This document shows positions 8,587 through 50,231 of a stretch of DNA of 51,604 nucleotides, piece after piece. The translations under genes and the position numbers were made by a program. Origin of the DNA: Candidatus Binatota bacterium (GTDB lineage: Bacteria; Desulfobacterota; Binatia; UBA1149); contig DUBO01000043.1 of NCBI GenBank assembly GCA_012960245.1, forward strand, positions 23,908 to 75,511. Direction: 5' to 3'. The stretch's first letter is position 1. Each line of letters opens with the position of its first letter. The notes below the pieces were generated by a model. It had not been told where the DNA came from. It saw nothing but the letters and a program-made list of their open reading frames with translations, and did not search any database.

Positions 8587-10187
8587 GCGTGGGCCGGCAG
8601 GGGCAGGGTATGCTACCGCCCGAGTACTCCCTGGCTTACCCCAACGTGGAGTCCGGCCTCGACCTGGCGCCGCGGCTTTCTTCGCCCCGGGTCTATCACG
8701 CCGACGCCGTGGTGGTGGGCAGCGGCGCGGGCGGGGCCCCGGTGGCTGCGCGGCTGCGCGACGCTGGCCTCGACGTGCTCCTGCTCGAAGAGGGCGGGCT
8801 CTACCGCACGGCTGATTTCGTGACCGATCCCCTGGAGTCGGCCCGGCGCATGTATCGCGACGCGGGCACCAGCCTCATCCTGGGACAGCCGCCCATAACC
8901 TTTGCCGAGGGCAGGTGCGTCGGCGGTTCTACTGTTATCAACGGCGGCATGTCCTGGCGCACACCCGGGCGCGTACTACAGCACTGGGATCGCAAGCTGG
9001 GCCTGGACGGTTGCGATGAGAAGAGCATGCAGGGCTGGTTTGAGCAGGCCGAGCGCATATTGACTCCGGAGACCCAGCATCCCGAAACCATAGGAAAACC
9101 GCTGGCGCTGTTCGCCGACGCGGCCCGTCGCAAGGGTTGGGACCCGGTCGACAACCAGCGCAACATGCAGCGCTGCATGGGGCTCAACAACTGCGGCTTC
9201 GGTTGTCCGACGGGAGCCAAGCGATCGATGCTGGTCACCGAGATTCCTCGCGCGCTGGCCGCCGGTGCGCAGCTGGTAACCAACGCCAGGGTGGACCGCG
9301 TACTGAAACGCCGCCGCCGCGTGGCTGGCGTGGCGGGTAGTTTTGTCGACCTTCACGGGCGTAGGCAAGGCCGCTTCGAGGTTCGCGCGCGCCTGGTGGT
9401 GCTCGCGGCGGGCGCCCGCAACACGCCGGGCCTGTTGCTCAGGAGTCGGCTGCGCGGTCCGATGACCGGCCGCGGCCTGCACGTGCACCCCAACGCCAAG
9501 GTGGTGGGGCTGTTTGACCAGCCGCTCGACAGCTGGGTGGGCACCCACCAGGCCCACCAGGTCCATCGCTTCATGGACGAGGGCATACTCATGGCCGCCG
9601 CCGGTGTTCCACCGGGCATACTGGCGGCGGGCATTCCCGGCCTGGGCGAGGAACATGGCCGCTTGATGGCGCGCTACAACCACATGCTGACCGCCGGTTG
9701 CCTGGTGGAGGACAGCGGCGAGGGCCGTGTCCGCCTGGGCCCGGACCGCCGGCCGCTGATGACTTTCAAGTTGTCGTCGCGGGATCTCGAGGTGCTGCAC
9801 CGCGGCGTTCGCCTGCTCGCCGAGGGTGTATTCGAGGCTGGTGCTGAGCGCGTGTTGTTGCCCTTTGCCGATCTTCCGCTGCTCGAGTCGGCAGACGAAC
9901 TCGAAAAGATTGACCAGCGGCCTCGGTCGCCGCAGGGGCTCGAACTGATGACGGTGCACATAATGGGCAGTTGTCGCATGGCCGTCGAAGAGCGCCACGG
10001 GCCCTGCGACCCCTGGGGGCGCGTGCGTGGCATAGAAGGGCTGGCGGTGGCCGACGCAAGCGTTATCCCCTCGCCGGTGGGGCTCAATCCCATGGAAAGC
10101 ATCGTCGCGTTGGCGCTGCGCAACTGCGAGCGCTGGATCGAGGGCTACAAGAGCCAGGGAGGCAACAGTGCTGTTCACTCGTCCTGA
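8583..10187 (+). CDS. GMC family FAD-dependent oxidoreductase
   Basis: 534 aa. The FAD-binding motif VVVGSGAGGAPVAARLRDAG at residues 40-59 is followed by LLLEEGG. GGSTVINGGMSWRTP is the usual GMC flavin-contact segment. A Cys-rich loop (CMGLNNCGFGCPTGAK, about residues 197-212) is seen in the cholesterol/alcohol oxidase-like branch. The C-terminal HIMGSCRM and VADASVIPSPVGLNPMESI are the active-site and FAD-closing motifs. It oxidises an alcohol or sterol-like substrate, which cannot be identified from sequence. It overlaps the upstream small subunit by 4 nt and the downstream gene by 20 nt. Confidence 0.95.
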   Translation: MSVGRQGQGMLPPEYSLAYPNVESGLDLAPRLSSPRVYHADAVVVGSGAGGAPVAARLRDAGLDVLLLEEGGLYRTADFVTDPLESARRMYRDAGTSLILGQPPITFAEGRCVGGSTVINGGMSWRTPGRVLQHWDRKLGLDGCDEKSMQGWFEQAERILTPETQHPETIGKPLALFADAARRKGWDPVDNQRNMQRCMGLNNCGFGCPTGAKRSMLVTEIPRALAAGAQLVTNARVDRVLKRRRRVAGVAGSFVDLHGRRQGRFEVRARLVVLAAGARNTPGLLLRSRLRGPMTGRGLHVHPNAKVVGLFDQPLDSWVGTHQAHQVHRFMDEGILMAAAGVPPGILAAGIPGLGEEHGRLMARYNHMLTAGCLVEDSGEGRVRLGPDRRPLMTFKLSSRDLEVLHRGVRLLAEGVFEAGAERVLLPFADLPLLESADELEKIDQRPRSPQGLELMTVHIMGSCRMAVEERHGPCDPWGRVRGIEGLAVADASVIPSPVGLNPMESIVALALRNCERWIEGYKSQGGNSAVHSS

Positions 10188-11046
10188 CGGCGTAAAACTG
10201 GGCGGGCTCGACCCGGTGCGGCGCATGCTGCCCTTCATCCTGCCCACCCGTAACCAGGCCGCGGTACTGTGCCGTCAGCAGGTCGAGGTCGCCCCGCTCC
10301 GGGAGTTCCTGGCCGATTGGAATCGCGACCGCGAAGCGGCCCGGCAGGCGACGCTGTTTCATCTCGTGCTCAGGGCGCTCGCCATGTCGCTGCACGAGCG
10401 CCCTCGGCTCAACCGCTTTGTCATGGGGGGCAGGCTATGGGCCCGTAAGGGCTTGTGGATTTCGTTTTCGGGCAAGCAGGGCATGAGCGATGACGCGCCG
10501 GTGTACACCCGTAAGCGTGAGTTCGCGGCCAACGAGGACCTGGCCTCGGTTGTGGATGGTCTGACCGCGGCATCGGTCAGCGGCCGCTCGGGAGTGGAGA
10601 CCGATTCGGACAAGGAGGTGTCGTTGCTGCTGAGGCTGCCGGCTCCCTTGCTACGCCTGGTCATCGGCCTTGCGCGCCTGCTCGATACCCTCAACCTGCT
10701 GCCGGCCGCCATGCTGCGGGCCGATCCGTTGTACGCCTCTGCCTTCGTCGCCAACCTGGGCAGCGTGGGCATCGACGCCTGCTATCACCACAACTACGAC
10801 TACGGCAACATCCCTATCTTTGTAACGATGGGGCGGATTCACAAGGCGGTAGTCGTCACCGCCGACGACCAGTTGCAGGCCAGGGAAGTTTTCGAGCTCA
10901 AGTTTACTTACGACGAGAGGGTGGAAGACGGTTTCTATTGTGCGCGTGCACTCGAGCGCCTGGCCGAGCTGCTTGCCCACCCCGAACGGCTGCTCGAGGC
11001 CCCGGATCTTCCGTTATCTGCCGCTGGCTCCGGTTCGGCTTGCTGA
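10168..11046 (+). CDS. 2-oxoacid dehydrogenase E2-like acyltransferase domain protein lacking the catalytic His
   Basis: 292 aa, GTG start inside the end of the GMC gene with GGGAGG just before it. The fold is that of the E2 catalytic domain/chloramphenicol acetyltransferase (HLVLRALAMSLHERPRLNRFV, then ASAFVANLGSVGID and FVTMGRIHKAVVV). E2 enzymes end in a DHRxxDG active-site motif. Here the matching segment is DERVEDG (residues 249-255), with Glu250 replacing the catalytic histidine. No lipoyl domain is present. It therefore probably does not act as a standard transacylase; a binding or structural role, or an altered chemistry, is more likely. The 3' end overlaps the convergent glycosyltransferase gene by 33 bp. 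Confidence 0.9.
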   Translation: MLFTRPDGVKLGGLDPVRRMLPFILPTRNQAAVLCRQQVEVAPLREFLADWNRDREAARQATLFHLVLRALAMSLHERPRLNRFVMGGRLWARKGLWISFSGKQGMSDDAPVYTRKREFAANEDLASVVDGLTAASVSGRSGVETDSDKEVSLLLRLPAPLLRLVIGLARLLDTLNLLPAAMLRADPLYASAFVANLGSVGIDACYHHNYDYGNIPIFVTMGRIHKAVVVTADDQLQAREVFELKFTYDERVEDGFYCARALERLAELLAHPERLLEAPDLPLSAAGSGSAC

Positions 11047-12231
11047 CCTGGCCTCTTTGTCCAGCGACGAACAGTTGGTCAGGTATTCGCGCAGGATGCG
11101 CGTGGTAGTGCTGCCGCCCTCCATGTTGTAGCCCAGCTCTGGCGGATTATTGTAGCGCGCTTTCTGCACTGCCTTGAGCAGCGATTTGCCGTCGAGCTGC
11201 CAGGGCTCAACGACCACCGCCTGGCCTTCTTGTTCGAGGCGCCGGGCCCGGCGGGTCTGGCTGCCGCCCGGCTGCCGGCGCGGGATGATCACGGCCGGTG
11301 TTGAATTCTGCAACACGTCGAGGCTGGCGTTGAAGCCTGCCTCTCCGACCACGACCTGGGCCTGGTTCAGCAGCGGGACAAGGTTCTCGACACTGCGCTG
11401 TAGTTTCACGTGGCGGCTTGAGCGGGTGAGGTGTCGCAGTTCTTTCCAGTCCTCTTCGGATATGGATGGGCCTGTCACAATCCTGGTCTCAAGGCCTTCT
11501 TCTCTCCACAGCCTGCCGTGTTCGAGGGCGGCGAGTTTGAGCAGCTTGGCTGAGTCGTGTCCGTTGCCGCCGCTTACCAGTAGCTCGGGGGTAGGGTTAG
11601 GCGGGGCGGGGGTTGAGCGGCTGTCGAGTTCGCTCACGTCGACGAAGCCGGTGTGAAGAATCTGTACCGGCAGGTTCATCGCTTCGGGGCTGCGGTCTTG
11701 AATATTCACGTGACTGGGGTCGGTGTGCACGAGCAACATGTCAAAACAGCTGTTGAGCAGCTCCAGCGTATCCTGGTCCACGAAGGCGGGCTCGCCCACG
11801 TCATCGGGGCTGCGAACACTGCAGGCCATCACTGGCACCGTGTTGCTGGCCAGGGCGGCGTTTATAAGCGGGACGAGCTCAGAAGCCAGGGTGATGAGCT
11901 CCAGCGGAAAACGGTCGACGAGCAGGACCTCGGGGCTGGTGGAGGCAAAAAGATCGAGCAGTTTATCTCGGCGCAACACCAGGGTCTGGTCGAGGTCGCG
12001 GCGTCGGTCCAAGGTCTGAATGCCCCCGTCATCGGCTAGCGTGGCCGCCGGCAGCTCTCTGACCAGCACGTTGGCTGGGGCGACAATTCCTTTGGGTATG
12101 GGGGAACCCAGCACGAGAGTGACTCTGAAGGACTGGCTGAGGCTGTCGGCCAAGCCGAGGCTGTGACGCAGGGCACCGAGAGACCAGGATGGCTGGCTGT
12201 AAAAGAATAGCTTTGGTAGCGGTAATGACAT
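11014..12231 (-). CDS. MurG-like (GT28-type) predicted glycosyltransferase
   Basis: 405 aa from ATG 12231 (MSLPLPKLFFYSQ). The frame is open to 12303, but that part overlaps the proposed promoter. The N-terminal half has a Rossmann-like start with SLGALRHSLGLADSL, as in the predicted glycosyltransferases of COG4671. The C-terminal half has GEAGFNASLDVLQNSTPAVIIPR and SQTRRARRLEQEG, the nucleotide-sugar binding region of MurG-type enzymes. It likely transfers a sugar from a UDP- or similar donor in the cytoplasm, for envelope or secondary glycans. A sigma-54-type promoter lies 55-70 bp upstream. Confidence 0.9.
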   Translation of the reverse strand: MSLPLPKLFFYSQPSWSLGALRHSLGLADSLSQSFRVTLVLGSPIPKGIVAPANVLVRELPAATLADDGGIQTLDRRRDLDQTLVLRRDKLLDLFASTSPEVLLVDRFPLELITLASELVPLINAALASNTVPVMACSVRSPDDVGEPAFVDQDTLELLNSCFDMLLVHTDPSHVNIQDRSPEAMNLPVQILHTGFVDVSELDSRSTPAPPNPTPELLVSGGNGHDSAKLLKLAALEHGRLWREEGLETRIVTGPSISEEDWKELRHLTRSSRHVKLQRSVENLVPLLNQAQVVVGEAGFNASLDVLQNSTPAVIIPRRQPGGSQTRRARRLEQEGQAVVVEPWQLDGKSLLKAVQKARYNNPPELGYNMEGGSTTTRILREYLTNCSSLDKEARSASRTGASGR

Positions 12232-12286
12232 TGTGCGATGCCCCATTGTTTGACCGGTTTGCTTTCTTGACCGGTGCCTCTCACGA

Positions 12287-12303
12287 AGCAAAGGCCATGC
12301 CAT
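12287..12303 (-). promoter_or_regulatory. Sigma-54-type promoter for the glycosyltransferase gene
   Basis: Read on the minus strand: ATGGCATG-GCCT-TTGCT, 11 of 13 consensus positions, with GG at 12301-12300 and GC at 12289-12288 separated by 10 bases. The predicted start is near 12276, giving a leader of about 45 nt. It diverges from the promoter at 12543, with the TGGGGCAA motif between them. Confidence 0.55.
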
Positions 12304-12444
12304 TTGCGGGGCGCCGGTAATAGGCTGCTGTTTTGTGCAAGCCAGCAGGGGGGATTCGGAGTTACAGCCCGGTAATAACGTAGTTCCTTGCGCTATGACC
12401 CCCTGGGTTCACACTCTTTCGGGGGGGTCAGCAGCAGGGTGAAA

Positions 12445-12452
12445 TGGGGCAA
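12445..12452 (+). promoter_or_regulatory. TGGGGCAA motif, putative activator site (2 of 4)
   Basis: The context is aaaTGGGGCAAatg. It is 100 bp upstream of the -24 GG at 12545 and about 144 bp from the divergent -24 at 12301. A reversed, imperfect copy (TTGCACCCA, 12463-12471) follows, making a spaced dyad. It is placed to serve both promoters. Confidence 0.5.
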
Positions 12453-12542
12453 ATGGGCTTATTGCACCCAACTGCGTGGGTATATGCCGCAGACAGTAGG
12501 CTTGGGTGGTGCATTTCTGCTAGTTAATCCGCAGCATCCGGA

Positions 12543-12559
12543 TTGGCATGATGGTTGCT
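12543..12559 (+). promoter_or_regulatory. Sigma-54-type promoter upstream of a terminator, not of a gene
   Basis: TTGGCATG-ATGG-TTGCT matches 12 of 13 consensus positions with exact GG-N10-GC spacing (12545-12546, 12557-12558). The predicted start is about 12570. No plus-strand gene follows; instead a strong intrinsic terminator stands about 50-80 nt downstream, which points to a small RNA. Confidence 0.65.
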
Positions 12560-12569
12560 TATTTTAACC

Positions 12570-12651
12570 GCGTGTCGCTGTGGTGGTTCCCCCGAAAGCT
12601 ACTACTTCGGTCACTGGCGGTCGGCGGCGTAAGCCGCCGGCCGTTTTTTTT
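12570..12651 (+). ncRNA. Putative sigma-54-dependent small RNA, about 82 nt
   Basis: It is bounded by the sigma-54-type promoter at 12543 and the terminator at 12618-12651. The body has a first hairpin, CCGAA (12592-12596) with TTCGG (12606-12610), leaving the loop AGCTACTAC exposed, then a short linker and the terminator hairpin with eight T residues. This is the layout of an Hfq-type bacterial sRNA and recalls the sigma-54-driven Qrr RNAs of Vibrio, without sequence relation. No ribosome site or sensible ORF is present. Its last 41 nt are antisense to the 3' end of lnt. Confidence 0.5.
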
Positions 12652-14167
12652 GTGCCGCGGCCCCCAGCGCTGCAAGCATGAGCAGAACACTTAGCCACGG
12701 CAGCCAGTCTCCCCCCAGGCTGTAAGGCCCAGGCCCAGGCCCCGGCTGTACCACGAACAATCCCACGCGCGCCGAACCCGGTCGGAGCGATCCCGCGAGC
12801 GAAGCGTCAGCGGCCAGCAGTACGCTGCTGCCGGTGGTCGTTGAGCGCAGCAGGGGCAATCCGTTTTCCACCGTCCTGGGCGTGGTGAAGGCCAGGTGTT
12901 GCAAGCGGCCCGCTCCGGCGTCGAACCAGGAATCGTTAGACAGGTTTACCAGCAGGTCTGCCCCCGCGCGCGCCGCGCTCCGTGACGCCCCGGCAAACAC
13001 AGCTTCAAAGCAGATCAGCGGGGCGATGCTCCACCCGTCGAGTTCAAACAGCACCCGCTTGCTGCCCGGCAGGTAGTCGAGTGGATTGGCGCCTGGCAAC
13101 CAACCGGGCCTGTACTCCATCCACTGCAGCAGCCTCATCTTGTCGTAGACTTTCCATTCGCCCACCGCGGGGTCGAAGAAGTAGGCCGAGTTGTACAGAT
13201 GGGCGCGGCCGTCGCCGCGATCTTCGTTGCGCACGCTTCCCAGCAGTACCGCCGCGTTCTGCTGCCTGGCGAGCTCCTCGACGCGTTGCTTGCTGCTCGC
13301 GTCGAAGAAGCGGGGTATCGCTGCTTCGGGCCAGACGATGAGGCGCGCGTCGGCAAGTTCGGGTCGGCGGCTGAGCTCGAGCTGGAGATCGAGGTGCGAG
13401 CTCTTTTTCGCGGGGTCCCACAGGTCGTGCTGGCCCAGGCCCGGTTGTATGACGGCGACCTTGAGAGGGCTGAGTCCTTGTTCGTCGGCCGCCGGAAGCC
13501 CAACGAGAGCCGAGAGTACAAAAACCACGAGCACCGCGCCCGCCACCGCGGCCGAGCGCAGGGCCTGGTCGAGGCGCTGGTTTTCAATCCACGTCACCGC
13601 CAGTGCTCCACCGAAGGCTGCCGCCAGCCAACCGGGCAACCAGGTACCGCCCAGGCGGATGAGGGCGTAGGACGAGGGCAGGTCGTGGAAGGCCTGGCCC
13701 AGCAGCCCCCAGGGATTGCCGCCCAGCAGGCTGGCGCGGGCAAAATCCCAGGCCGTCCAGGTAAAGGCAAAAGCCACTACGCGTGCGATCGGGGACAGCG
13801 GGTGCAGTCTCGAGGCAAAAAGCGCGAGCAGGGCGGTAAAAAGGGCCACGTGCAAGCCGGTAAACCCGATGGCAAGGGCAGCGGCCTCGGCCCCGCCGAC
13901 CTCAAAATAGCGCAGTGCGGCCTGGGCTATCCATGCCCCGGTTCCACCGAGGGCAAAAGCCCAGCCGAACAGCAGCCCGGCCAGCGCCGCGTGCCAGGGC
14001 CTGAGCGGCCTGGCCGGATCCAACAGCAGCAGCGCCAGCGGGGCTGGTGCCAGCAGTGCCGCCCACGAGAGGTCAAACGGCGGAAACGCAGTGATGTATA
14101 ATAAAGCGGCTGCCAGGCACCGGGCCGGCAGCCGTGCCAGGGGAGGGGGTAGGCTGGAATCCTGCAC
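12611..14167 (-). CDS. lnt: Apolipoprotein N-acyltransferase
   Basis: 518 aa from GTG 14167; a TTG at 14227 would add 20 residues but would overlap the divergent kinase start. It transfers an acyl chain to the N-terminal cysteine of outer-membrane lipoproteins, completing lipoprotein maturation in the inner membrane. The N-terminal half has about six membrane segments with the family signature AWDFARASLLGGNPWGLLG. The C-terminal half is a nitrilase-like domain with the catalytic set Glu in VWPEAAIPRF, Lys in YDKMRLLQ and Cys in LICFEAVF. A last membrane helix (WLPWLSVLLMLAALGAAA) closes the protein. Length and motifs are normal for Lnt. Confidence 0.95.
   Translation of the reverse strand: MQDSSLPPPLARLPARCLAAALLYITAFPPFDLSWAALLAPAPLALLLLDPARPLRPWHAALAGLLFGWAFALGGTGAWIAQAALRYFEVGGAEAAALAIGFTGLHVALFTALLALFASRLHPLSPIARVVAFAFTWTAWDFARASLLGGNPWGLLGQAFHDLPSSYALIRLGGTWLPGWLAAAFGGALAVTWIENQRLDQALRSAAVAGAVLVVFVLSALVGLPAADEQGLSPLKVAVIQPGLGQHDLWDPAKKSSHLDLQLELSRRPELADARLIVWPEAAIPRFFDASSKQRVEELARQQNAAVLLGSVRNEDRGDGRAHLYNSAYFFDPAVGEWKVYDKMRLLQWMEYRPGWLPGANPLDYLPGSKRVLFELDGWSIAPLICFEAVFAGASRSAARAGADLLVNLSNDSWFDAGAGRLQHLAFTTPRTVENGLPLLRSTTTGSSVLLAADASLAGSLRPGSARVGLFVVQPGPGPGPYSLGGDWLPWLSVLLMLAALGAAAQKKRPAAYAADRQ
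12618..12651 (+). terminator. Intrinsic terminator (plus strand)
   Basis: An 11-bp stem (12618-12628 with 12633-12643, one G-T pair) closed by the GTAA tetraloop is followed by T8 (12644-12651). The T-run exists only on the plus strand, so it stops rightward transcription. It overlaps the lnt coding end, whose own transcription runs leftward. The nearest complete plus-strand gene upstream ends 1.5 kb away. Confidence 0.85.
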
Positions 14168-14196
14168 GGCAGGTCTCTCGATACTCGCGGGCTGAT

Positions 14197-16713
14197 ATGA
14201 CTGCAAGCAAAGAAAGCCGTTTCGCAACGATACTCGCGCCGGGCCTTGTACAGGTCCTGGTCGCGCTCGTAGCCTCGGTGGTGGTCGCGACTGCGATTTT
14301 CGCTTCGGTAGACCGGGTGGGCAAGAGTTTTCCCGGCTTCTTCGTCTGGGAGAACCTGGTTGTACCGGCGCTGGGCGAAGCCAACTGGACCGGCGCGGAA
14401 TCGGGCGTGGAATACCTGTCGTGGCTGCGCTCGGCCGACGGGCGCACGCTGCGCAACGGGCGCGAGCTCACCGAGATGGTGGAGGGGCTGAGCCCCGGTA
14501 CCAGCCTCAGCTACATTTTTGAGAAAGAGGGACGGCTGACGGAGGTCGAAGTCGAGGTGATGCGTTTTGGCTGGCGCGAGTGGGTCTCGGTGCTGGGCCT
14601 GTTCAACTTTGACGCCGCAGCGCTACTCATCCTGGGCATAGTTGTTCTCTACATGAAGCCCGACGACCCGGCCGCGCGCGCGCTGTTTCTCTTCAGTGCC
14701 AACGGGGCTGCTTACCTCGCGGCTTCGGCCGACATGCAGGGCAGTTACCTACTGCGGATGCCGTACTTCTTTTTCTTCAACCTTGTACCAGCCACTACCT
14801 TCTACCTCGTGAGTTGTTTTCCGGTGGGTCGCATCAGGCGGCGCTGGGAGGACGGGGTGTTCGCGGCCTTGCTCGGCCTGGGCTTCGCCTACGGGATTGC
14901 CACCAACTACTTCTATTTTCGCGATCACGATCTCTTGCTCGTCCTCGAGCGAATGAGTTACCTGCCCGTAGCGCTGGGCGCTGTCATGGCCCTGGCCTTC
15001 TACGCCTACTATTTTTTCACCACCGACAGCCTGGTGGTCAGGCAGCGCACCAAGGTGGTGTTGTTCGGCACCGCGTTGGCGTTTGCCCCGATGGCCGTGG
15101 TCCTGCCGGCCGTCTTTGTCGGCGGCGCGGCCTTGCCCGTGAACCTGAGCACGGTGCTGTTCGTGGTCTACCCGGTCAGTATTGGCTACGCGGTGGCCCG
15201 CCACGACCTCTTTGGCATAGACAAGGTGATCAAGCGCGCCCTGGTCTACACCGTGCTTTCAGCCCTGGTGCTGGGCGTCTATACACTGACCCTGGGTACG
15301 GTGGACTACCTGTTCGAGGGCCTGACGGCCGCCGCTTCGCGGGTGGCCGAGGGCGTGCTCATCCTCGGCCTGCTCGTGGTGAGCAACCCCAGCCGCGCGC
15401 GCATCCAGGCCTTCGTTGACAGGATGTACGACCGGCGCCGCTACGATTATCGCGGGGCGGTAAGGTCGGCGTCGCGCAGCTTCAGCTCTATCCTCATCTT
15501 TGAAGAACTGGTTCGGTCGGTGCTCGAGCTGGTGGACGAAACCCTGCAACCGGTGTGCGCCGACATACTGTCGGTCGACGAAGACGGCGCCGTTTACCGC
15601 CGCGGCCGCCTCGTGCACGCGGCCGGAGGGCAGGGCGGCGTGCGCACGGGGCTGGGTGGCGCAGCTGCCTCCAGCCTGGCCCCGCTGGCGAGGGAGTTGA
15701 ATCAGGTCGACCTGCTGGCCGAGGCCCAGCAGGCCGGCGATGGTCACGAGGCCGACGTTGAGGCAGCCATGCTCGACCTTGACGCGGTGTTCGTTCTGCC
15801 CATGAGACTGGAGGGTCGACTGGTGGGCATGGTGTCGGTCGGCCAGCGGCGGGCGGGCGGTTATCACGGCGGCGACGACGTCGAACTGCTGCGGACGGTT
15901 TGCGACCAGCTGTCGGTGGCACTCGAGAACGCGCAGGCCTATTCGCGTATCGATCAGCTCAACCGCGGGCTCGAGGAAAGCAATCTCGAGCTCAACCGTA
16001 CCAACGTCGAACTGCGCGAGACCCAGGGATTGCTGGTGCAGAAAGAACGCCTGGCAGCCGTTGGCGAGTTGTCGGCCGCCGTCGCCCACGCCATACGGAA
16101 TCCGCTCGCGGGCATCAAGGCCGCAGCCCAACTGGCTATATTTGAAGCCGACGATGAAGAAAGCTCCGACCCGGACGAACAGGTCGCGCTCAGGGACATA
16201 GTGTCGGAGACCGATCGTCTCAGCGACCGCATAGCAGCGTTGCTCGATTACTCGCGTCCCTTTGAGCCCAGCCTCGCGCCTGGATCGATGGAGAAACTAG
16301 CTGGCGAGGTCATGGCCCTGTCAGCCGGCAAGGCGACCGAGCGGTCCATTGAGCTCCACCACCAGCCCGAACCCGGACAGCCGCTGGTGCTGATGGACAA
16401 GGTGCTGTTCGAGCAGGTGATAATGGAGTTGGTGGCCAACGCCCTCGACGCGTCTCCCGACGCGGGCAGGGTGCAGCTGACCAGCGGCCACGACGAAGAA
16501 CACGCGTGGCTCGAGGTGACGGACAGCGGCGCGGGCATAAAGCCAGACAAGGTTTCGCGTATCTTTGACCTGTTCTTCACCACCAAGGCGGGGGGCACGG
16601 GCTTCGGGCTGGCCACGGTCAAAAAGATCGTCGACCAGCACGGCGGTACGGTTACGGCTGAGAACGCGGAGCAGGGCGGGGCGATCTTTCGCGTAGAGCT
16701 CCCCCGGGCCTGA
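14197..16713 (+). CDS. ComP-like membrane sensor histidine kinase with GAF domain
   Basis: 838 aa from ATG 14197 (MTASKES), only 30 bp from the divergent lnt start. Layout: TM1 at about 15-37, a periplasmic PDZ-like segment (about 40-120, LRNGRELTEMVEGLSPGTSL), a block of about eight membrane helices (about 130-395), the juxtamembrane signature DRMYDRRRYDYR seen in ComP-type kinases, a GAF domain (about 430-580), a short coiled coil, and HisKA with phospho-acceptor His631 (AVAHAIRNPLAGIK). HATPase follows with N-box (ELVANALDAS), DSGAGI and GTGFGLATV. It should autophosphorylate in response to an unknown envelope or membrane signal. Its likely partner is the convergent NtrC-family regulator next door. 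Confidence 0.94.
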   Translation: MTASKESRFATILAPGLVQVLVALVASVVVATAIFASVDRVGKSFPGFFVWENLVVPALGEANWTGAESGVEYLSWLRSADGRTLRNGRELTEMVEGLSPGTSLSYIFEKEGRLTEVEVEVMRFGWREWVSVLGLFNFDAAALLILGIVVLYMKPDDPAARALFLFSANGAAYLAASADMQGSYLLRMPYFFFFNLVPATTFYLVSCFPVGRIRRRWEDGVFAALLGLGFAYGIATNYFYFRDHDLLLVLERMSYLPVALGAVMALAFYAYYFFTTDSLVVRQRTKVVLFGTALAFAPMAVVLPAVFVGGAALPVNLSTVLFVVYPVSIGYAVARHDLFGIDKVIKRALVYTVLSALVLGVYTLTLGTVDYLFEGLTAAASRVAEGVLILGLLVVSNPSRARIQAFVDRMYDRRRYDYRGAVRSASRSFSSILIFEELVRSVLELVDETLQPVCADILSVDEDGAVYRRGRLVHAAGGQGGVRTGLGGAAASSLAPLARELNQVDLLAEAQQAGDGHEADVEAAMLDLDAVFVLPMRLEGRLVGMVSVGQRRAGGYHGGDDVELLRTVCDQLSVALENAQAYSRIDQLNRGLEESNLELNRTNVELRETQGLLVQKERLAAVGELSAAVAHAIRNPLAGIKAAAQLAIFEADDEESSDPDEQVALRDIVSETDRLSDRIAALLDYSRPFEPSLAPGSMEKLAGEVMALSAGKATERSIELHHQPEPGQPLVLMDKVLFEQVIMELVANALDASPDAGRVQLTSGHDEEHAWLEVTDSGAGIKPDKVSRIFDLFFTTKAGGTGFGLATVKKIVDQHGGTVTAENAEQGGAIFRVELPRA

Positions 16714-16748: not shown

Positions 16749-18143
16749 TCAGCGCAGCGCGTGCTTGTCTAGCCGGTAGCGCAGCGTGTCCCTGGACATC
16801 CCCAACAGCTTGGCGGCCTGCACCTGGTTGTTGTCTGCGTATCTCATCGCGCTGGTGAGCAGGTTGGCCTCGACGGTTTCCAGCGGAATCGGCCCCTGCG
16901 AGAAATCGACCTCAAAGTCGGCCGTTGCCACGGTGCCCGTGTTTTGCGTGCGAGTCCCGGCAGCCGGAAAAAATGCGAGATCCTGGACTTCGAGGTCACC
17001 GCCGTTGTGCATCACCAGGGCGCGCTCCAGGGTGTGGCTGAGCTCGCGAATGTTGCCCGGCCAGGGGTAGGCAAGCAGGGCCCGCATGGCGTCGGCACTT
17101 ATCTTTGGCGCGGCCACGCAGTAGTCGGCCGCGTGTTGGGCCAGGAAGTGTTGCGCCAGGATCTTGATGTCACCTTCGCGTTCCCTCAGTGCGGGGAGCT
17201 TGATGTTGACCACGTTGATGCGGTGAAAGAGATCCTCGAGGAAGTTGCCTTCGGCGACCTCTTTTTCCAGGTCCATGTGGCTTGCCGCCACTATGGTGCA
17301 GTTGATCTTGCGGTCGCGGGTGCTGCCCAGGCGACGCACGACCTTTTCGTCGATGATCTTGAGCAGCTTGGATTGCAGGGGGCGGGCCATGTGGCCGATC
17401 TCGTCGAGAAACAGCGTGCCGCCGTCCGAGGCTTCGACCAGGCCGGTCTTGGATGTATTGGCGTCGGTAAACGCGCCCTTCTCGTATCCCATGAGCTCGG
17501 CCTCGAGAAGGTTCTCTGGAATGGCCGTGCAGTTGACCTCGATGAAGGCCTGGTCGGCCCGTGGCGAGGCGTTGTGCACAGCCCGCGCCACCAGTCCCTT
17601 ACCTGTTCCCGTTTCACCCGCGAGCAACAGGGTGGGGCCTTCGCCGTCGGCCTTTTTCATGCCGGCGAGCCTGGTCACCAGCTGCCGTACCTGGTCGATG
17701 GCCGGCGACCGGCCGATGATGCCCCCCTGCTCGGGTACCGACAGGTCGCGTTCGCGGTAGTATTCGAGTTCCCGACGTACGCCGGCACCTTCCAGGCAGC
17801 GGTTTATGACGAGGGCGAGTTCGTGCAGGTCGACGGGCTTTCGCAGGTAGTCGGCCGCCCCGTCGCGCATTGCCTTCACGGCGTCTTCCACCGTGCCGTA
17901 GGCGGTCATCATGATCATGACCACATCCGGCCAGGACTCGTGCACCCTGGCCATCAGTTCCATGCCACTCATGCCCGGTAGCCTGTTGTCGGTAAACAAC
18001 AGGTCGGGGGGACCATCCGGGATCACCGCCAGGGCCTCTTCAGCCGTTTCGAACTCACGGGCCTGGTGGCCCAGCTTGACCAGGGCGCGGGCCAGCGTGC
18101 GCCGCAGCACCTCCTCGTCTTCAACCAGTATTATGTCAGCCAT
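16749..18143 (-). CDS. NtrC-family sigma-54-dependent response regulator
   Basis: 464 aa. Receiver domain 1-120 with phospho-acceptor Asp52 (FTDNRLPGMSG) and Lys in YLRKPVD; AAA+ domain about 140-375 with Walker A GETGTGKG, the sigma-54 contact loop and FLDEIG; C-terminal Fis-type helix-turn-helix (QAAKLLGMSRDTLRYRL). It activates sigma-54 RNA polymerase from upstream sites. The contact loop is GAFTDA, with Asp227 in place of the consensus Gly; this variant is known in some family members but is notable. It is convergent with the kinase gene (35-bp gap). Five sigma-54-type promoters lie within 12 kb, so it is the natural candidate activator. Confidence 0.95.
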   Translation of the reverse strand: MADIILVEDEEVLRRTLARALVKLGHQAREFETAEEALAVIPDGPPDLLFTDNRLPGMSGMELMARVHESWPDVVMIMMTAYGTVEDAVKAMRDGAADYLRKPVDLHELALVINRCLEGAGVRRELEYYRERDLSVPEQGGIIGRSPAIDQVRQLVTRLAGMKKADGEGPTLLLAGETGTGKGLVARAVHNASPRADQAFIEVNCTAIPENLLEAELMGYEKGAFTDANTSKTGLVEASDGGTLFLDEIGHMARPLQSKLLKIIDEKVVRRLGSTRDRKINCTIVAASHMDLEKEVAEGNFLEDLFHRINVVNIKLPALREREGDIKILAQHFLAQHAADYCVAAPKISADAMRALLAYPWPGNIRELSHTLERALVMHNGGDLEVQDLAFFPAAGTRTQNTGTVATADFEVDFSQGPIPLETVEANLLTSAMRYADNNQVQAAKLLGMSRDTLRYRLDKHALR

Positions 18144-42021: not shown

Positions 42022-42050
42022 TTGACACCGGCGCTGCGCGTGCCTAGCGT
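42022..42050 (+). promoter_or_regulatory. Sigma-70-type promoter ahead of the riboswitch
   Basis: TTGACA (42022-42027) is a perfect -35 element, followed after exactly 17 bases by TAGCGT (42045-42050), which keeps the key T, A and final T of the -10. The predicted start near 42057 falls just before the first paired elements of the cobalamin riboswitch. Confidence 0.65.
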
Positions 42051-42061
42051 GCGCGTCGAGT

Positions 42062-42225
42062 CGTCTGGAGGCACCGTTGCCGGTGTTTCCAACGGGAACG
42101 AGGTGAAAATCCTCGGCTGCCCCGCAACTGTAAGGGAGGACGAAAGGCGCAACGGCCACTGGGCTCACACCCCGGGAAGGCGTGCCGAGTAGATCGATCC
42201 CCGAGCCAGGAGACCGGGATGACTC
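42062..42225 (+). promoter_or_regulatory. Cobalamin (B12) riboswitch
   Basis: All main conserved blocks appear in order: GGTGTTTCCAACGGGAA (about 42082-42098), GAGGTGAAAATCCTCGGCTG with CCCCGCAACTGTAA (42100-42133), GCCACTGGG (42155-42163) and the B12 box AGCCAGGAGACC (42204-42215). The leader ends 43 bp before the start codon and its ribosome site (AGGAGG, 42259-42264). B12 would be expected to repress the downstream pair of secreted proteins. Confidence 0.95.
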
Positions 42226-42268
42226 GCAGATATATCTTCAAGTCCGGCGCGGGCCGGCAGGAGGAAAC

Positions 42269-48704: not shown

Positions 48705-50210
48705 TTAGAAAGGGCAGTTGAGCGTGACGGGCAATCCGACCGCGACCTGGAGTACCATCAGCGCGTCGGTCGAGGCCACGGCGCCACTGGAATCCGTGTC
48801 ACATACCTCGAGCTCGCAGCTTTCGAGGCCCACCGAGGACCTGAGTATATACGAAGAGTCGAGTGCTGTAACCGTGCCGGAGTCGTTGGGGTCGCCGCAG
48901 GCCACGCGTTGGCAGCTGTGGTCGCAAAGCTCGCCCGAGTCCCACTCGGTGTCGCCGTCATCGCACTGCTCGAGTGCGTCCAGCGTCCCGTTGCCGCAGG
49001 TGATGCTCAGGCGCGGGCATTCAATCTCCACGTCCAGTCCCACGGCCGCTTGCAGAAGCAGCAGCGAATCGGTCGCCGATACCCGGCCGTTGCTGTCCAC
49101 GTCGCAGACTTCGAGCGCGCAGGAATCCAGTCCAACAGCTACCCTGAGGGTGAACAGGGCGTCGATGACGCTCACCGCTCCACGCGAATCGTCCGGGTCA
49201 CCGCAGAGTACGGCAGCGCAGTTGTTGCGGCAGGACTCGCCGATCTCGTGGGCGCGGTCTCCGTCGTCGCAACGCTCGCCTATCTCGATGAGCCCGTTAC
49301 CACAGGGAGAGGTGTCGGGGTGTATGAGGTCGATGACCTGGAAAACCGGGTCGTGGTGAGTATCAAACAGGCAGTCTACCAGCGCGGCCAGCGAGAAGAC
49401 CGGAGCCTGCGGGTTTACGCACTCGTTGGGAAAACCAAGCTCGGACAGGTCGATGGCCCGGCAGTTTCCCGGCAGCTGGCGAAGCAACTTGTTGTGCGCC
49501 ACGCGCAGGTTCTCGTCGGTGCCTGGGTGACCGGTCGCCGTGGCATCGAGTTCTTCCTCGGCCCTGCACTCGGTGCTGGCCGGCACTTTGCCGCGCTCCT
49601 GCTTCGAAAGGCAGCGTTCGCGTGAGCGAAACTCGTTGGTGACCATGTCGGCCGCTTTGTGAGCGAGCAGGTCCTGGCACTCCCTCTGTCCCCTGCTGAG
49701 CTCGAGCTCGAGAACGGGGTACTCAACGCGCAGCATGTTGGCTATGTACTGGTCCACGGCAACGATGATGCACTGCTGGTGGTCGAGCGCCGTGTAGGCA
49801 AGGCTGTCGAAGCCGGTGCAGAAGCCGGGCCAGCCCAGCGCCAGCAAGCTCATGCCGGTGCAGCTGCGGTCGATTCGTTTGCCGAAAAGCTTGCGGGCCC
49901 TGACCAGGCGGTTATCGGTTGATTCGTTGCCGGTGGGCTCATCGGCTACCGCCAGGCAGTCGGTCTCGGCCGGAAGCTGGCCCCGCACCACGTCGCGCCT
50001 GCAGGCCTGGCGGGCGTTGAGCGTGGAAACCATGTATTCGGTGGTGGCAAAACCGGCCTTGTTGCGGCACAGGGTTAGCTCATCACTGAGCTGGGCGTGG
50101 GCCATTGCAGCCGGCAGCAGCAGTGCGGCCGCTGCCAGCAGAGAAAAAGTTGCGGCTTTGCAAAAAGCTGGCCTGTGAAAAAACGACCTGTAATTTATGA
50201 CTGAACGCAT
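48705..50210 (-). CDS. Secreted protein with dockerin-like EF-hand repeats and CGNG..CDDGD motifs
   Basis: 501 aa from ATG 50210; a much longer frame upstream is antisense to mrp and spurious. Signal peptide near residues 1-40 (LLAAAALLLPAAMAHAQ). Residues about 45-300 form a Cys-containing helical region of unknown type. Then come CGNGLIEIGERCDDGD at about 303, a dockerin type I-like pair of calcium loops (VIDALFTLRVAVGLD, VDSNGRVSATDSLLLLQAAVGL), a second CGNGTLDALEQCDDGD, and a second pair (LDSSYILRSSVGLE, TDSSGAVASTDALMVLQVAVGL). Such modules occur widely in secreted proteins of this lineage without cellulosomes. An extracellular, calcium-stabilised role is inferred. Confidence 0.92.
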   Translation of the reverse strand: MRSVINYRSFFHRPAFCKAATFSLLAAAALLLPAAMAHAQLSDELTLCRNKAGFATTEYMVSTLNARQACRRDVVRGQLPAETDCLAVADEPTGNESTDNRLVRARKLFGKRIDRSCTGMSLLALGWPGFCTGFDSLAYTALDHQQCIIVAVDQYIANMLRVEYPVLELELSRGQRECQDLLAHKAADMVTNEFRSRERCLSKQERGKVPASTECRAEEELDATATGHPGTDENLRVAHNKLLRQLPGNCRAIDLSELGFPNECVNPQAPVFSLAALVDCLFDTHHDPVFQVIDLIHPDTSPCGNGLIEIGERCDDGDRAHEIGESCRNNCAAVLCGDPDDSRGAVSVIDALFTLRVAVGLDSCALEVCDVDSNGRVSATDSLLLLQAAVGLDVEIECPRLSITCGNGTLDALEQCDDGDTEWDSGELCDHSCQRVACGDPNDSGTVTALDSSYILRSSVGLESCELEVCDTDSSGAVASTDALMVLQVAVGLPVTLNCPF

Positions 50211-50219
50211 AGTTGTGTA

Positions 50220-50231
50220 CCCCGAAAGGGG
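50220..50231. repeat. CCCC-GAAA-GGGG mini-hairpin upstream of a gene start
   Basis: It lies 10 bp before the start codon of the dockerin-repeat gene (minus strand), in the position of its ribosome site. It is the same motif as at 30438 and 50430. Confidence 0.4.

Follow-up and report, generated by a model that had tools for sequence, protein, structure and literature searches.

Does the short interval between a glycosyltransferase gene and lnt in this Candidatus Binatota genome encode a small RNA of its own, driven by sigma-54? The question is raised by the plus strand of the window (the whole 51.6-kb stretch of DNA analysed), where TTGGCATG-ATGG-TTGCT at 12543-12559 is followed further 3' by a GTAA-loop hairpin and then by eight T residues (12644-12651), exactly the arrangement described in the original prediction. 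Scored against TGGCAYG-N4-TTGCW, which we take to be the consensus for sigma-54 (-24/-12) promoters, TGGCATGATGGTTGCT at 12544-12559 fits at 12/12 specified positions; the site falls one position short if Y must be C, which accounts for the 12/13 reported earlier. Because the C at 12558 is counted as -12, the predicted start is 12570, and the RNA would run from there to 12651, about 76-82 nt. Its putative intrinsic terminator (12616-12651) overlaps the 3' end of lnt; the hairpin is found as foreseen, with a stem slightly longer than the 11 bp first given, 13 pairs with G-U counted. No frame inside 12570-12651 contains a start codon followed by a stop, and the gene occurs once in the genome. 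The earlier observation that plus-strand genes are distant holds as well: the last likely one upstream (10168-11046) ends 1.5 kb away, and mechanical plus-strand ORFs at 11174-12039 are antisense to the glycosyltransferase gene. These features support the proposed reading of a small RNA with its own terminator, whose transcription is itself predicted, and we consider it likely that 12570-12651 is a stand-alone, separately terminated, non-coding RNA of about 80 nt that depends on sigma-54.

The locus was compared in three closely related genomes of the genus, the source genome and two congeners. Promoter, RNA and terminator occur at the same place in all three and form one conserved unit, and the ten proteins tested from the surrounding block, a histidine kinase and an NtrC-type regulator among them, are present in both congeners. 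The original prediction would have been refuted had promoter and terminator not been conserved together in close relatives; in both congeners they are. The promoter matches at 12/12 specified positions in each species, with only two N4 positions varying, while the spacer that separates it from the RNA is scrambled, with differences at 7 of 11 ungapped positions. Within the RNA, whose body is conserved in all three species, 6 of 39 columns differ up to the lnt stop and 3 of 41 positions differ in the part overlapping lnt; the upstream intergenic DNA used for comparison carries 62 changes in 217 ungapped columns. Promoter and body jointly are more conserved than that DNA (P = 0.004; P = 0.017 against its nearer stretch). 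For the body alone the conservation is statistically modest, P = 0.04 against the upstream intergenic DNA and P = 0.12 against the nearer stretch. Changes avoid paired columns (2 of 48 paired against 7 of 35 unpaired, P = 0.027), and both changes that do fall in paired columns preserve the pair; no two-sided compensatory change occurs among the three genomes. In the terminator, differences between species are confined to the tetraloop and a single G-C/G-U pair. Taken over promoter, spacer, body and upstream DNA, the pattern of substitution fits function.

Folding revises one part of the original prediction, which had placed an exposed AGCTACTAC loop on a hairpin at 12592-12610. The pairing probability of that hairpin is approximately zero in all three species, and combining it with the terminator costs 12-14 kcal/mol relative to the minimum-energy fold. 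According to the minimum-energy folds in the three species and base-pair probabilities, the first hairpin instead spans 12572-12614, with GUGGUGGUU paired to AGCUACUAC and a C-rich loop, CCCCCGAA (12589-12596), left open. The AGCTACTAC segment is thus predicted to be paired, the C-rich loop being the open part of this hairpin. The loop reads CCCCCGAA in two species and CCCCGA in UBA1149, and is open in all three; fold z-scores are -5.6, -5.3 and -4.6. Upstream of the promoter, CTTTCGGGGG at 12416-12425 is the exact reverse complement of the RNA's CCCCCGAAAG (12589-12598); it differs in UBA1149, so the complementarity may be due to chance.

Outside the genus, a class-wide search of 148 genomes with the model R1, run with stricter filters that lose some weak matches, gave no homologue among the remaining 145. 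Scores drop from 109-112 bits for the three members of the genus to 32.9 for the best match beyond them; at E<=0.5 the model has matches in 74 of the 148 genomes. Seventeen non-genus loci behind weak matches were viewed, sixteen of them properly (L023 was mis-centred), and were rejected, having at most 10/12 promoter positions upstream; by eye, each of the sixteen closes with a hairpin that resembles a terminator and is followed by a T-rich stretch. A BLAST match in another genome (G028, locus L004) lies within open reading frames and was likewise set aside. Positional equivalents were sought at 16 lnt loci from all 13 genomes of the order, scoring sites with GG and GC intact: the three genus loci have a 12/12 site 69-70 nt from the lnt end, and the thirteen others reach at most 9/12 promoter positions within 700 nt. 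The exact loop pattern gave no relative outside the genus among named genomes, where its two records are UBP10_UBA1149 and NIOZ-UU50, and no match in viral contigs; a search of plasmids likewise gave no match. No Rfam family reaches its gathering score at 12300-12700, where the only matches at E<=10 are suhB / mmgR (RF00519), with 20.6 bits against a gathering score of 41, and rnk_pseudo, with 14.6 against 55; both were rejected. GlmY, CrcZ and NrsZ are other known sigma-54 RNAs and were compared here through the Rfam scans alone. The element is best described as a probable sigma-54-dependent small RNA that belongs to a known functional kind but has no known relatives at the level of family.

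The genome encodes RpoN (PF04552, one match, 215 bits). A second sigma-54 site, TGGCATGGCCTTTGCT at 12287-12302 on the minus strand, with GG-N10-GC kept by alignment in all three species, faces the glycosyltransferase gene (11014-12234, minus strand, likely start 12234; PF04101, 39.1 bits, cutoff 22), and through it the suggested co-control of that gene with the RNA is plausible. The glycosyltransferase is 84-87% identical in the two congeners; relatives occur in 20 of the 148 class genomes, with identity outside the genus of at most 36%. Eleven Sigma54_activat matches pass cutoff, eight of them above 125 bits, a count that is soft because the family is also matched in 14 of 14 control genomes. 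One of several candidate activators of the sRNA promoter is an NtrC-type response regulator at 16749-18143 on the minus strand (Response_reg, Sigma54_activat, HTH_8), syntenic in both congeners; a kinase gene lies near it, at 14134-16713. A candidate activator-binding dyad, here CTGCGT-N9-CCGCAG, lies at 12472-12492, centred about 88 nt before the predicted start. It is a perfect 6-bp dyad in both congeners, with the outer pair T:A in one and G:C in the other, and has one mismatched pair here. Taken alone the dyad is weak, with four window matches at no more than one mismatch against 2.0 expected; among the loci fetched (18 of 192 matching) its core occurs only in copies of the sRNA locus.

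Of the 22 other sigma-54 sites in the genome, 18 had their downstream proteins scanned against Pfam. At seven sites the downstream protein has no Pfam match, and the remainder include PII, a polysaccharide export protein, two AAA ATPases, a Flp pilin, DUF4215, DUF7948, a transglycosylase-domain protein, two small regulators and a sigma-54 activator. The list hints at a theme of surface and nitrogen functions, which a glycosyltransferase would suit; the transglycosylase-domain, AAA ATPase, polysaccharide export, PII, Flp pilin and DUF4215 genes, at loci L057, L058, L072, L073, L076, L079 and L080, would outline such a regulon. At another locus, L074 (G000:C45:62283), an element at about 1500-1850 has a sigma-54 site and, some 318 nt beyond the start predicted from it, a strong terminator (-23.2 kcal/mol, eight T), with a short ATG frame inside; an NtrC-type regulator gene comes next. 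This element may be another sigma-54 RNA or a small-protein gene. The window also contains, at 42046-42236 on the plus strand, a Cobalamin riboswitch (116.7 bits).

Could the site be a chance resemblance to a sigma-54 promoter, beside an unrelated hairpin in the end of lnt? The pattern TGGCAYN5TTGCW has 24 matches in the 2.82-Mb genome and its reversal has 7, so part of the 24, about seven, would be expected by chance; the terminator, moreover, sits within coding sequence. The exact form TGGCATN5TTGCT occurs three times genome-wide (twice reversed), and two of the three are the sRNA promoter and the divergent site in front of the glycosyltransferase gene. Only 2 of the 24 sites have a strong terminator in the next 350 nt, and 12544-12559 alone has one within 100 nt, by a scan that returns eight terminators on both strands of the window. 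Against coincidence stands the retention of promoter, spacing and terminator in all three species, with substitutions only at neutral places, and we regard this explanation as very improbable.

The overlap with lnt invites other explanations. The neighbour was correctly named in the original prediction as lnt, apolipoprotein N-acyltransferase (12611-14227, minus strand; TIGR00546, 218 bits against a cutoff of 132.9), and since its stop codon lies at 12613-12611, 41 nt of the RNA (12611-12651) are antisense to its end, an overlap that had also been anticipated and is kept in all three species. The 3' half of the RNA, complementary to the last 41 nt of the lnt mRNA, might thus form a cis-acting antisense unit, in which sigma-54 transcription towards lnt, or the duplex, would lower lnt expression or read-through into the glycosyltransferase gene. 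Such a unit would need no target in trans, and it draws on an overlap that is real and conserved and on the tandem arrangement of lnt and the glycosyltransferase gene on the minus strand. The antisense part, however, is the terminator itself, which is tightly folded, and the conserved body, identical in 33 of 39 columns, is situated past the stop codon of lnt, in a part for which antisense action on lnt coding sequence needs no conservation; we judge the cis-acting unit unlikely. Substitutions in lnt bear on what is conserved here. None of the 13 fourfold sites in its last 20 codons varies, compared with 85 of 309 across the gene (P = 0.014). Its final 12 codons carry two replacement changes and no silent one, the whole gene 74 replacement and 114 silent; this contrast does not reach significance (P = 0.15), and conservation equal to or above that of the final window is seen in 182 of 514 twelve-codon windows. 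Both amino-acid changes in those 12 codons come from the terminator's tetraloop and its G-C/G-U change, which fits constraint on the terminator more than constraint on the protein tail. The terminator might also simply shield lnt, with transcription or sigma-54 binding taking place and the RNA having no role. Its position close behind the promoter, the failure to find a conserved target and the modest statistics for the body alone all agree with such a guard, but the RNA's changes avoid paired columns and none of the three species loses the open C-rich loop, and we give the guard even less weight than the antisense unit. A separately terminated small RNA remains the preferred reading.

As a precedent for such an RNA, the original prediction had cited Vibrio Qrr. 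Qrr is among the Rfam families, acts Hfq-dependently, and has luxO as a neighbour or is present in several copies. The candidate has no Rfam match to Qrr at E<=10 in 12300-12700, is a single copy in a genome where Hfq was not found, and has the glycosyltransferase gene and lnt as neighbours. What stands of the comparison is the layout: Qrr is described as having a sigma-54 promoter directly before a short RNA, a predicted terminator and an NtrC-family activator (PMC11443567), and here too a sigma-54 promoter directly precedes a short RNA with a predicted terminator. Pxr of Myxococcus xanthus and other myxobacteria, for which a predicted sigma-54 promoter, an enhancer region and hosts with no hfq homologue are described, appears to be the nearest analogue (PMC5684412, PMC5568312). 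The likeness is one of description: a short intergenic RNA, a predicted sigma-54 promoter, an upstream enhancer region and a host in which no Hfq was found. Another chaperone is described as possible for Pxr (PMC5684412, PMC5568312). Pxr differs in having three stem-loops in 108 nt, where the present RNA has two. Its flanking genes are the regulator gene nla19 and one for an NADH dehydrogenase (PMC5568312), whereas here the RNA is flanked by the glycosyltransferase gene and lnt, and the NtrC-type gene is 4 kb distant. A parallel for the loop is IsrR of Staphylococcus aureus, which is described as working without Hfq, with single-stranded C-rich regions in hairpin loops, and which has been modelled on Shine-Dalgarno regions (PMC9410917). 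The C-rich stretch here is likewise predicted to be single-stranded in a hairpin loop; IsrR, in contrast, is Fur-controlled, belongs to another phylum and has three C-rich regions. The IsrR host is AT-rich and G-rich stretches are rare in it, so a C-rich seed would be less selective in the GC-rich genome studied here. The likeness to IsrR is one of function, not kinship. Together, the Hfq-less, sigma-54-driven Pxr and the C-rich-loop RNAs of Gram-positive bacteria would make a better analogy than Qrr.

How might the RNA act? Hfq (PF17209) was found neither in the source genome nor in any of 148 genomes of the class (Binatia), while 5 of 14 control genomes were matched; a Qrr-like, Hfq-dependent mechanism is therefore unlikely. 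From these features we infer transcription, an activator and a mechanism as follows. An NtrC-type activator would bind upstream, possibly at 12472-12492, and RNA polymerase with RpoN would transcribe the RNA as far as its own terminator. The glycosyltransferase gene, which has a sigma-54 site of its own, would probably be switched on there by the same signal. The RNA would most likely act in trans without Hfq, the C-rich loop of its first hairpin pairing with G-rich ribosome-binding sites of target mRNAs. Taken by itself, this loop mechanism is a tentative proposal that we hold somewhat short of an even chance.

Targets were sought in the three genomes as TTCGGGG, the complement of the loop, located 2-12 nt before an ATG. 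There are 45, 38 and 47 such matches per genome against 27, 29 and 27 for the reversed pattern. All 45 matches of the source genome were followed up, together with the congener copies of three strings common to the three species, and no conserved start-site target emerged among them: two of the shared strings precede frames of 60 or more codons that are themselves parts of longer frames, and the third starts no frame of 60 codons. Several other strings also recur in all three target lists. On the minus strand of the window, at 50208-50226, TTTCGGGG stands shortly before the ATG of a Dockerin-match protein and is complementary to the RNA loop; the string recurs in one of the two congeners, and its frame is open for 127 codons upstream. 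We treat this case as a lead.

The host belongs to Binatota, the group also called UBP10 (PMC8262859). UBA1149 is there treated as an order, one of three excepted from the report of flagellar genes in all orders (PMC8262859). The main text of that genome paper contains neither "small RNA" nor "Hfq" (PMC8262859), and the collection of papers searched has none with both "Binatota" and "small RNA". In its fullest form, the reading would make this the first regulatory RNA under sigma-54 control in the phylum Binatota, one that is specific to the genus, works free of Hfq, brings a C-rich hairpin loop to ribosome-binding sites and tunes cell-surface genes (polysaccharide, pili, secreted proteins) under shared sigma-54 control; with all its parts combined, this picture is a doubtful one, if possible. 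Compact and with a clear evolutionary footprint, the RNA offers a testable case for how a sigma-54-driven small RNA may act without Hfq, a protein found in none of the 148 genomes of its class.
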